Shown: in pieces, positions 40,333-44,126 of the stretch
Numbering within the stretch: position 1 is the first letter of the stretch
Layout: every line of letters begins with the position of its first letter
Assembly (NCBI RefSeq): GCF_024357955.1
Contig: NZ_JANEYT010000008.1
Coordinates: 32,762-96,761 of the forward strand
Length of the DNA: 64,000 nt
Direction of reading: 5' to 3'
Source: Photobacterium pectinilyticum
GTDB lineage: Bacteria; Pseudomonadota; Gammaproteobacteria; Enterobacterales; Vibrionaceae
Notes under the pieces: generated by a model
Databases searched by the model: none
What the model saw: the letters and a program-made list of their open reading frames with translations, nothing else
What the model was told of the DNA's origin: nothing
Program-made: the position numbers and the translations under genes

Positions 40333-40617
40333 TTTACAACCTCATTACTGATCCCGGAGCAACCGTAGAAAAACGTAATCCGATAAAAGTTGCCCCGGAC
40401 GTTAACAATGCCCACCATACTAGCAGCCCGTTTTGCCAGCGACCATGAGGTAGCACAAACATTACCCCAAGTTGAGAGCTAGGATCTATTTTGTTGCACC
40501 GGTTATGGCACGCAACCACGAACAGCAATATCTGACCAACTTCCTCAAGTAATATTGCTGACAAATCACAACCAGCGCTTTAACATAGACATAAATGATT
40601 TCTCAACTGGACGTCCC

Positions 40618-41598
40618 ATGAGCAACTGGTCTGAAAACCTCAATTTTGATCGCCTTTCCCTAGCAACTGGCGATGCCCTGCCTTCTCTTGCCTTGGTCAA
40701 TCTTGCCAACTGGGCACTCGTAACCCTGATCGGCGACGACAAAAAATCGTACCTACAAGGTCAGGTAACCTGTGACGTGGTAGGCCTTACCGCAGATCAA
40801 AGCACCCTTGCCGGCCACTGTGATGCCAAAGGTAAACTGCGTACCGTTTTTCGTTTATTCCACCACAATGATGGCTATGGCTTTTTGCAGCGCCGCAGCA
40901 TTATGGATAGCCAACTGCCCGAGTTAAAGAAATACGCCATTTTTTCCAAAGTCGATATCGAAGCCAGCGACGATATCCTATTGGGTATTGCGGGTAGCGA
41001 TGCCGATGCACAGGTGGCACAACTATTCGGTGGTGAAGGTGATGTCCGCGCTATCCACGGCGGTACAGCGGTCAAGATTGACAGCCAACGCTGGCTGCTG
41101 GCACTGAACGCCGTCGCGGCCAATGACGTTGCCAGCCAACTCGCGGACAAAGCGACGCTGAGCGATGACAGCCTGTGGGATCTTTATGACATCCACGCCG
41201 CGATCCCGTGCATCGATGCGGCAACCGAGTTGGAATTTATCCCGCAAGCGGTCAACCTGCAGGCGCTGGATGGGATCAGCTTCACCAAAGGTTGCTACAC
41301 CGGTCAGGAAACCGTGGCACGCGCTAAGTACCGTGGTATCAACAAGCGCGCAATGTACATCGTCAGCGGCTCTGCCGAACACTGCCCGCAAGCGGGCGAC
41401 AGTCTGGAGCGCAGCGTGGGTGAAAACTGGCGCAAAGGCGGTACCATCGTCGCTGGTTACCAATTTGCTAATGGCCAAGCAATCGCATTGGTCGTATTGC
41501 CAAACGATCTGGATGAAAACACAGCTTTCCGCCTAGCTGGCACCGAAGGCGTATGGCATCAGCAAGCACTGCCATACTCACTGGATGACAACCGCTAA
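40618..41598 (+). CDS. ygfZ: tRNA-modifying / iron-sulfur repair protein YgfZ
   Basis: Folate-binding GcvT-like protein needed for repair or assembly of iron-sulfur enzymes such as MiaB. The signature KGCYTGQE contains the key Cys. The ATG at 40618 (326 aa) is chosen because the conserved N-terminus starts there. A longer frame from 40555 adds residues without a ribosome-binding site. Divergent from sdhE. The next gene follows after 3 bp. Confidence 0.95.
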   Translation: MSNWSENLNFDRLSLATGDALPSLALVNLANWALVTLIGDDKKSYLQGQVTCDVVGLTADQSTLAGHCDAKGKLRTVFRLFHHNDGYGFLQRRSIMDSQLPELKKYAIFSKVDIEASDDILLGIAGSDADAQVAQLFGGEGDVRAIHGGTAVKIDSQRWLLALNAVAANDVASQLADKATLSDDSLWDLYDIHAAIPCIDAATELEFIPQAVNLQALDGISFTKGCYTGQETVARAKYRGINKRAMYIVSGSAEHCPQAGDSLERSVGENWRKGGTIVAGYQFANGQAIALVVLPNDLDENTAFRLAGTEGVWHQQALPYSLDDNR

Positions 41599-43095: not shown

Positions 43096-43293
43096 TTAGC
43101 GTTTTGATTCAGGCTCGCTGATTTGATGAAGCTTGTGCTCATCACAAGGCTCCTTACAGCCACACTCCTTATCGACCCCAACATTGGCAAGCCCACCACA
43201 GCTCCCTTGGATGGCTTTTTTGCGAAATATCCAACCGATGGCCATCGCCCCTATCACCAGCATAAAAATCAGTACGGTGAACAAATAGGTCAT
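43096..43293 (-). CDS. NqrM-like (DUF539) membrane protein
   Basis: 65 aa: one membrane helix (about 4-22), then a short soluble tail with four cysteines (GSCGG, ECGC, EPC). This is the pattern of NqrM, the maturation factor for iron insertion in the Na+-translocating NADH:quinone reductase. nqrM usually lies beside apbE after the nqr operon; neither is here. It could be the sole nqrM, displaced, or a paralogue serving the upstream metal-binding protein. Its start overlaps the upstream stop (ATGA). Confidence 0.82.
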   Translation of the reverse strand: MTYLFTVLIFMLVIGAMAIGWIFRKKAIQGSCGGLANVGVDKECGCKEPCDEHKLHQISEPESKR

Positions 43294-43766
43294 AACTTAA
43301 CCCCTCCAATCTTGGTCAGTCCCTGCAGGTTGGCATTACCTTTAGTCATCATTCCAATTTTAGCGGGTTTCACTGTTTTTTTGCTGCCGCAACCACAGCC
43401 ACAGCCGCCTTTCTCTCGCTTACATGGGCGCCCCTGCTCAGCAGTCAGCAAGGGTTCGCGGCTAACGCTGCCATTCAATACATCTTGCACCGCCGTACGA
43501 TTAGGAACCCTAAACACTGAAAAACCAGCTCGTAGCAAGCGAGCTAGCGAACGCTGACCGACATTGCCAAGCAATAACGTTTTAACATTGTGCTCTGCCA
43601 ATTGTGCCTGAAGCTGCTTTTTATGCTTGCATCCCACTTCTTTGCGGCCTTGGTTAATCAATTCGGCAATCTGCTGCCCTTGTTCATCATAAACAACAAA
43701 ACCGGCAGCTTTACCGAAATGCCCAGCCACTTCATGATGTGGCGTGACGGCGATGGCTATTGACAT
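43290..43766 (-). CDS. NifX/NifB-like iron-molybdenum cofactor-binding family protein
   Basis: 158 aa. The N-terminal ~95 residues match the dinitrogenase FeMo-cofactor-binding fold (MSIAIAVTPHHEVAGHFGKAAGFVVYD, LLLGNVGQRSLARLLRAGFSVF). The C-terminal tail is cysteine-rich (RPCKREKGGCGCGCG), suggesting a bound metal or cluster. No nitrogenase genes are present, so a role in nitrogen fixation is not implied. A strong AAGGAG precedes the ATG. It overlaps the DUF134 gene by 10 bp and the NqrM-like gene by 4 bp. Confidence 0.85.
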   Translation of the reverse strand: MSIAIAVTPHHEVAGHFGKAAGFVVYDEQGQQIAELINQGRKEVGCKHKKQLQAQLAEHNVKTLLLGNVGQRSLARLLRAGFSVFRVPNRTAVQDVLNGSVSREPLLTAEQGRPCKREKGGCGCGCGSKKTVKPAKIGMMTKGNANLQGLTKIGGVKL

Positions 43767-44071
43767 GATGGCTCCTTTTGATTGTTTGGATGGCTAACAG
43801 TATCCAGCTCTAATGCCATACCCTTGACCAAGGCGCTCGCCACTTTATGTCTTGCAGCAGCAACAATATTGCCCAAGGTCTGGCGGGATACCTCCAGTTC
43901 CTGCGCGGCAGCCTGCTGGCTCAGTCCAATAAGGTCGACCAGCCTTAACGCTTCTAACTCATCGGCAGCCAAAGAAAGGGAGGCGAGTTCAGACATCGGC
44001 ACCCCATTGGGCTTGAAACAGCTATAAGCTGGGCGACAACGGATCCGTCGCTGGATTTTTGGTCTAGGCAT
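43757..44071 (-). CDS. DUF134-family DNA-binding protein
   Basis: 104 aa. The N-terminus MPRPKIQRRIRCRPAYSCFKPNG has the Pro, Arg and Cys pattern typical of DUF134, and a helix-turn-helix covers about 50-75 (LIGLSQQAAAQELEVSRQTLGNIVAAAR). It is likely the regulator of the operon it heads. A perfect 22-bp palindrome lies 33 bp before its start and is the obvious candidate operator. Function of the family is poorly described. Confidence 0.87.
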   Translation of the reverse strand: MPRPKIQRRIRCRPAYSCFKPNGVPMSELASLSLAADELEALRLVDLIGLSQQAAAQELEVSRQTLGNIVAAARHKVASALVKGMALELDTVSHPNNQKEPSCQ

Positions 44072-44104: not shown

Positions 44105-44126
44105 ATTATTGGCATATGCCAATAAT
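44105..44126. promoter_or_regulatory. Perfect 22-bp palindrome upstream of the DUF134 operon
   Basis: Half-site ATTATTGGCAT is followed directly by its exact reverse complement, with no mismatch. It lies 33 bp upstream of the DUF134 ATG, where a dimeric repressor would block the promoter. The remaining 44127-44534 is AT-rich and holds no clear promoter, RNA or gene. Confidence 0.75.

Follow-up and report, generated by a model that had tools for sequence, protein, structure and literature searches.

Three overlapping minus-strand genes of Photobacterium pectinilyticum, coding for a DUF134 protein, a NifX-like protein and a second NqrM (hereafter NqrM2), form a conserved operon. Judging from its sequence, NqrM2 belongs to one clade that is separate from the apbE-linked NqrM (hereafter NqrM1), and a regulation of the module by the DUF134 protein has strong comparative support. 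There is about an even chance that these genes would constitute a local and self-contained stress or metal module, in which DUF134 would control NifX and NqrM2 and in which NqrM2 would be a specialized membrane partner rather than a spare. The window, i.e. the whole stretch of 64,000 nucleotides that was analyzed, holds the following features:

43096..43293, minus strand: NqrM2 gene, 65 amino acids, PF04400 (open reading frame and Pfam match)
43290..43766, minus strand: NifX-like gene, 158 amino acids, PF02579, NifX/ORP fold (open reading frame and Pfam match)
43389..43403, minus strand: codons C122-G-C124-G-C126 of the NifX-like tail, which is disordered in the model
43757..44071, minus strand: DUF134 gene, 104 amino acids, PF02001, putative regulator (open reading frame and Pfam match)
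44106..44125, no strand: palindrome TTATTGGCATATGCCAATAA, 20 bp, probable DUF134 operator (comparative support)

Organization of the operon

An earlier note, made from the sequence of the window, had described three overlapping genes, and the open reading frames, all on the minus strand, their coordinates and their overlaps of 10 bp (DUF134/NifX-like, 43757-43766) and 4 bp (NifX-like/NqrM2, 43290-43293) were all recovered. So were the CGCGCG run (C122, C124 and C126) and, in NqrM2, the four cysteines (C32, C44, C46 and C50) to which the note had drawn attention. It had also remarked that no nif or nqr genes lie nearby, and none was indeed seen among the seven neighbors scanned with profiles; elsewhere in the genome are found an apbE-nqrM pair (contig C145) and nifH (contig C114). 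The operon is flanked on one side by ygfZ-like, ybaK-like and LysR-like genes, and on the other side by a DUF1107 gene, a gcvH-like gene and two FAD-binding-3 (monooxygenase-type) genes. The ygfZ-like gene (40555-41598) is located about 1.5 kb from the operon, YgfZ being a protein connected with Fe-S proteins. The ygfZ-, ybaK- and LysR-like genes recur beside the operon in several Photobacterium genomes, which probably reflects synteny.

Within the Vibrionaceae, DUF134, NifX and NqrM2 are codirectional in Photobacterium and in some Vibrio and Aliivibrio, and the NifX-NqrM2 pair is convergent with DUF134 in other Vibrio; in four named loci from a GTDB scan (best 80 of 362 relatives), DUF134 is absent from the 3 kb inspected. 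All 67 loci having both NifX and NqrM2 (re-fetched copies included) encode them on the same strand, and the two genes overlap by 4 bp in 47 of the 65 tabulated pairs, one row of which (L052) is an artefact with two NqrM-like matches. Reduced versions of the operon also exist: NifX has been lost from two Aliivibrio-type loci (L027 and L058), where DUF134 is followed by NqrM2 with an overlap of 4 bp and 1 bp, respectively, while NifX stands without NqrM2 under a perfect palindrome in L078. A strict relay from NifX to NqrM2 is therefore not obligatory.

Distribution of the second NqrM in the Vibrionaceae

The earlier note had proposed to look for another DUF539 gene beside apbE, and had regarded the link between the three genes as accidental should the only nqrM lie here in all relatives, with the other two genes not co-conserved with it. 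Such a gene was found: the genome under study (5.7 Mb, 200 contigs) also carries a canonical, apbE-linked nqrM located directly 3' of the ApbE gene on contig C145. In V. cholerae and V. natriegens, apbE and nqrM are likewise reported to stand in this order (PMC12174285, PMC6209661).

A profile search of 121 Vibrionaceae genomes found NqrM to be universal (121/121) and present in two copies in 62 of them. All of these 62 genomes carry DUF134, so that two NqrM are found in 62 of the 73 DUF134-positive genomes versus none of the 48 DUF134-less ones, each of which has one NqrM (Fisher p about 2e-23, which is not a true probability since the species are related). Every count includes the 11 genomes that have DUF134 but a single NqrM; eight genomes of the genus g9 keep DUF134 with a single NqrM. 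In Photobacterium, the genus of the window, two NqrM occur in 29/29 genomes with DUF134 and in 0/7 others. Besides, the second NqrM adjoins NifX in 59 of the 61 neighborhoods inspected and directly follows DUF134 in 2 of them; these neighborhoods cover 61 of the 62 second copies, that of G112 being counted with its surroundings left out. Once co-occurrence is tabulated across the family, as the earlier note had advised, DUF134 and NifX thus appear co-conserved with NqrM2.

No second NqrM was seen outside the Vibrionaceae among 369 Gammaproteobacteria genomes, in which the genome under study alone has two copies and 55 others have one. In the same line, the Aeromonas, Motilimonas and Psychromonas loci of the named scan are of the apbE type (best 80 of 362), and the NqrM2 rows bearing an organism name belong to Photobacterium, Vibrio or Aliivibrio. 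The view that the operon lies outside its usual contexts is half right: the gene does lie apart from apbE and nqr, but the DUF134-NifX setting is the usual one for the NqrM2 clade. Apart from this point, the earlier interpretation is borne out in part, by the second nqrM, the co-conservation, the tail cysteines and the support for a regulator.

NqrM2 as a separate clade

NqrM2 matches PF04400 (E 4.3e-19, 68.5 bits versus a cut-off of 22) and, like the apbE-linked NqrM of that family (PF04400/DUF539, Na+-NQR maturation factor), it is short and has one hydrophobic segment, the GSCGGL motif and four cysteines. The hydrophobic segment, as read from the sequence, would form a single membrane helix, as is expected for the NqrM family. 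The DUF134 loci of the family sample provided 58 distinct NqrM-like sequences, of which 57 have the four cysteines in the arrangement GSCGGL-x8-C-x-C-x3-C, the sole exception being a weak second match in L052; in V. harveyi NqrM, the first cysteine of GSCGGL (Cys33) is reportedly essential. NqrM1 and NqrM2 of the genome under study share 45% identity. They differ in that NqrM2 is tied to NifX and DUF134 with no apbE (0/46; best 80 of 362), and in that the NqrM1 tail is charged whereas NqrM2 has the tail LYQIxEP (LHQISEP in the window), a separate clade and a palindrome upstream.

The GTDB scan was made with an alignment of NqrM2 and one short peptide pattern, and its best 80 of 362 relatives are a selected sample. 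Among these 80, 46 nqrM loci are NifX-linked without apbE and 34 are apbE-linked without NifX, with zero mixed loci. The pattern L[YHF]QI.[EQ]P follows the last cysteine in 45 of the 46 NifX-linked proteins versus 0/34 apbE-linked ones, the tail of the one remaining NqrM2 reading LYQISGP (best 80 of 362). In a tree of NqrM, a single branch sets the 45 distinct NqrM2 rows apart (98/97, 99% of bootstraps), with the caveat that the alignment has few columns, that long NqrM1 branches join near the NqrM2 clade and that the order within the clades is not to be trusted. The split holds when the tail and the distant rows are removed (SH-aLRT 99, 47 versus 35 rows, no long branches). Two NqrM clades can hence be told apart despite one Pfam model and possibly one name; the NifX-linked copy of P. 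damselae, for instance, is labeled NqrM in an RNA-seq report (PMC6312309).

The DUF134 and NifX-like proteins

The putative regulator matches PF02001 over residues 3-87 (E 5e-19, 69.1 bits versus a cut-off of 27), and the little-studied DUF134/UPF0251 family, on whose function no dedicated study was found in the titles and abstract starts searched, now has a specific operator candidate and a regulon predicted for it. The protein has an N-terminal cysteine pair, present in 68 of 71 distinct proteins and absent from 3, followed by a sigma-region-4-like helix-turn-helix with the recognition helix SRQTLGN. Its structural model is of high confidence at residues 31-90; the structures similar to it are for the most part sigma region 4 domains and the DeoR DNA-binding domain, and no match attains E <=0.001. 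The label of probable regulator that had been given to it receives comparative support from the conserved operator-like palindrome presented below.

The NifX-like protein matches PF02579 (Nitro_FeMo-Co) over the cut-off (E 1.1e-14), and an alignment of 42 sequences shows no variation at M1, F17, C46, K49 and G70. Its model is confident at residues 1-110, save the C46 loop (41-50, mean pLDDT 65), and the tail is disordered. In a Foldseek search against the PDB, the first 12 matches range from E 1.2e-5 to 4e-4 with a probability of 1.00, and all 12 PDB matches with E <=0.001 are of the NifX/ORP/NafY type. The fold is that of the family including nitrogenase NifX, NafY, the Desulfovibrio orange protein, MTH1175 and TM1816, and NifX bound to NifEN as well as apo ORP are among the matching structures. 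Unlike these relatives, the window protein has a cysteine tail, and it scores under the cut-offs of both the nitrogenase NifX equivalog (TIGR02663, 27.5 versus 112 bits) and the MrpORP Fe-S carrier combining Mrp and ORP domains (NF041136, 23.9 versus 450 bits, at profile positions 265-352 of 365). The earlier note had made its metal idea depend on the conservation of the tail cysteines; these are conserved as a property while their positions move, with at least one cysteine after residue 100 in 58/58 and at least two in 53/58 distinct NifX proteins from NqrM2 loci.

A palindrome as candidate operator

The sequence TTATTGGCATATGCCAATAA, unreported in the earlier note, is a perfect 20-bp palindrome located 34 bp upstream of the DUF134 start, and it occurs once in the genome under study at <=3 mismatches. 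Its conservation was counted in 79 distinct upstream regions of the family sample, 60 with NqrM2 and 19 without. At <=3 mismatches, the palindrome is found in 60/60 regions with NqrM2, where it starts 49 to 81 bp upstream of the first gene, a count that is partly circular since the consensus was drawn from the counted loci, which does not apply to the position and to the convergent loci. Among the 19 regions without NqrM2, 4 have the palindrome (0 to 3 mismatches) and 15 stand at 4 to 9 mismatches, and none of 3950 dinucleotide shuffles reached <=3 mismatches. At the convergent loci, the palindrome precedes NifX in 18/18 cases (<=2 mismatches), and the promoter of DUF134 itself stands at 8-11 mismatches, for which reason a pure autoregulation of DUF134 through the palindrome is rejected at these loci.

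In the 3 kb upstream of nqrM, among the best 80 of 362 relatives, the palindrome is present in 46/46 NqrM2 loci versus 0/34 apbE-nqrM loci, the closest approach in the latter being 5 mismatches, and the four named loci that lack DUF134 within 3 kb have it as well. At the genome scale, sites with <=3 mismatches occur in 62/62 genomes with NqrM2, 65/73 with DUF134 and 12/48 DUF134-less genomes, to be read against a reversed control pattern that matches 27/121 genomes, so that about a quarter of genomes would hold a chance site at 3 mismatches. In the DUF134-less genomes, among the matches listed, the sites stand at 3 mismatches, save that of G019 at 1. One-sided variants such as TTATTGGCATATGCTAATAA recur, and in several loci the palindrome is repeated in tandem at a spacing of 22-31 bp.

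In the other samples (other family, class and phylum), a DUF134 with an SRQT helix (L111) has a perfect site, and next to it downstream come a small protein rich in glycine and an Mrp/NUBPL iron-transfer NTPase, and another SRQT-helix DUF134 (L226), then NifX, comes with tandem sites at 2 and 4 mismatches. The palindrome was not found for DUF134s with other helices (L097, L098, L100 and L101), and it is absent from the stand-alone SRQT-helix DUF134 genes L003 and L005 (9 and 7 mismatches). In L100 (position 1784) and L101 (position 1324), where the helix reads SSSTLQR, a different near-palindrome, ATATGGG(C/T)ATATACCCA, lies near the DUF134 start, and this pairing suggests a co-variation of helix and operator. 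The way in which the palindrome co-varies is the one that a DUF134 binding site would predict, which suggests a candidate site and does not amount to proof. A sigma-70 promoter scan around the operator returned one promoter-like site, 1.8 being expected by chance. A text search of the literature for the 12-bp core of the palindrome gave a single match, on an unrelated subject, and neither a second NqrM clade nor a DUF134 operator is described in the partial texts of the literature collection searched.

Plasmid relatives and thioesterase genes

Matches to the window DUF134 were found in 181 plasmid records, chiefly from Klebsiella (69) and Citrobacter (57); related DUF134-NifX cassettes travel on enterobacterial plasmids too. 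In seven plasmid contexts, DUF134 is followed by NifX in 7/7, with a thioesterase in 6/7, SLAC1 in 4/7 and Dps in 2/7. Cassettes of the DUF134-NifX-thioesterase type, with SLAC1 or Dps, were noted on enterobacterial and Aeromonas plasmids (L228, L229, L230, L231, L093 and L095), and one DUF134-NifX-thioesterase cassette sits on a 7-kb Proteus vulgaris plasmid; no study of plasmid DUF134-NifX cassettes was found in the literature searched. Operator-like cores lie just upstream in four plasmid contexts and differ from the 20-bp consensus at 4 or 5 positions; L094 has two palindrome copies (3 and 4 mismatches), and L093, with which the DUF134 and NifX of L095 share protein accessions, has a variant core. 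The NifX tails are rich in cysteine and histidine in 5 of the 6 plasmid relatives translated, the tail of L093 having one cysteine. These DUF134-NifX-PaaI(-SLAC1, -Dps) cassettes thus resemble the operon of the window by their pair of regulator and NifX, their GCATATGC-like cores and their mostly Cys/His-rich tails, but no NqrM is annotated in the seven contexts, a thioesterase, an anion channel or Dps being found instead. An ArsR gene, a Pyr_redox-rhodanese enzyme and TauE/SafE genes lie near some of the cassettes; such plasmid neighbors hint at sulfur chemistry, by a loose association.

Off-operon palindromes (<=2 mismatches) precede 4HBT/PaaI-type thioesterase genes in 4/4 cases inspected, one of the four sites being in G019, a genome without DUF134. 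The unlinked thioesterase genes with an N-terminal CxxC are L233:1562-1957, L234:1571-1966, L235:1230-1625 and L236:1659-2072. Of 71 loci compared (some re-fetched), 27 have a related thioesterase close to DUF134 or NifX.

A putative metal module and alternative readings

In the preferred reading, a DUF134 dimer would bind TTATTGGCATATGCCAATAA, whose half-site TTGGCA may be seen as resembling the -35 hexamer TTGACA, and would control the NifX-NqrM2 operon, the dimer, the sign and the signal being conjectural. The fold, the invariant cysteine and the recurrent tail cysteines suggest that the NifX-like protein could hold a metal or a metal-sulfur cluster by means of C46 and its flexible cysteine tail. 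By analogy with NqrM1, NqrM2, with its single membrane helix and its GSCGGL-C-C-C cysteines, would take iron or a cluster and pass it to a membrane acceptor, and this specialized sister clade with its LYQIxEP tail would be used when DUF134 receives its signal, be it metal, redox or reactive sulfur. The metal carried by the module, its signal and its membrane target are what we infer from these comparisons; as to the acceptor, since every one of the 121 genomes has the [2Fe-2S] subunit family of Nqr and Rnf, these subunits are the foremost candidates. Rnf has a membrane [2Fe-2S] site similar to that of Na+-NQR.

The same observations can be read differently. NqrM2 could be a conditional spare of NqrM1, fed by NifX and serving Na+-NQR or Rnf under iron or redox stress, and this reading, which is rather doubtful, would account for the common Pfam family, for the four cysteines kept in 57/58 sequences and for the presence of Nqr/Rnf membrane subunits (PF02508) in all 121 genomes; it fits less well with a separate clade having a different conserved C-terminus. 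Moreover, a V. harveyi genome carries NqrM2 (L200), yet nqrM lesions reportedly abolished functional Na+-NQR in this species, so that NqrM2 would not have replaced NqrM1 under the conditions used, if the strain is the same. A dedicated extra Nqr/Rnf complex was also considered as the target and rejected: the count of PF02508 subunits is 4 in 114 of the 121 genomes, and the exceptions (6 in G000 and G091; 5 in G043, G057 and G084; 3 in G101; 2 in G001) comprise four genomes with NqrM2 and three without, subunit counts in the 121 genomes therefore not tracking NqrM2. That the NifX-like protein serves nitrogenase, the operon being a stray nif piece, is extremely improbable: the genome under study (G000) does have a true nifH (contig C114:1387-2211, L223, 470 bits, over the cut-off), but nifH exceeds the cut-off in only 2/121 Vibrionaceae genomes (G000 and G104, both with NqrM2; 119/121 without nifH) versus 62/121 for NqrM2, and the TIGR02663 score is 27.5 versus 112 bits. 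Nitrogenase is accordingly rejected as a general partner. With its nifH and its 6 rather than the usual 4 Nqr/Rnf subunits, the genome under study may be that of a diazotroph with an extra Rnf.

A module acting mainly in the response to reactive sulfur or thiol stress, in which DUF134 would sense persulfides or electrophiles, NifX would trap metal-thiolates and NqrM2 would protect Fe-S sites in the membrane, is unlikely. It would agree with the DUF134 cysteine pair and with the plasmid neighbors (PaaI 6/7, SLAC1 4/7, Dps 2/7, and ArsR, rhodanese-type enzyme and TauE/SafE near some); however, no sulfur genes of this kind turned up among the window neighbors scanned, plasmid islands hold many unrelated genes, and one thioesterase of the group has no match in the genome under study, an empty result that alone shows little. 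As regards the palindrome, a terminator scan calls it a stem followed by T-rich sequence, and the region has six terminator-like sites versus 1.7 expected, which would suit a hairpin or attenuator with DUF134 as a mere neighbor. Such a role is nonetheless very improbable, as the sequence itself is conserved and not the pairing alone, as one-sided variants (TTATTGGCATATGCTAATAA) recur and tandem copies occur, and as the palindrome stays with the NifX promoter at convergent loci.

Coming back to the preferred reading of a DUF134-controlled metal module, a bolder version can be entertained, although the balance leans against it: NqrM2 would be dedicated to delivering iron or a cluster to some membrane protein distinct from Na+-NQR, and DUF134 would found a class of sigma-region-4-mimic regulators with a cysteine pair, controlling a transferable regulon. 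If this were true, the DUF134 cysteine pair would read metal, cluster or persulfide status, and the regulon would comprise the NifX/ORP, Mrp and NqrM2 carriers together with the thioesterase and the anion channel. The module is small and lends itself to testing the transfer of iron or clusters from a soluble carrier of the NifX type to a protein of the membrane.

Expression in Photobacterium damselae

On the link between NifX and NqrM, the literature search brought up no more than an entry in a table and a brief comment. A P. damselae genome carries the DUF134-NifX-NqrM2 trio (L159), and the authors of an RNA-seq study of this species discuss VDA_001251 (NifB/NifX domain), in the part of the text consulted, solely as a matter of nitrogen-fixation cofactor (PMC6312309). 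In that study, expression at 25 °C versus 15 °C is 6.1-fold lower for VDA_001251 and 3.0-fold lower for the adjacent VDA_001252 (NqrM) (PMC6312309).
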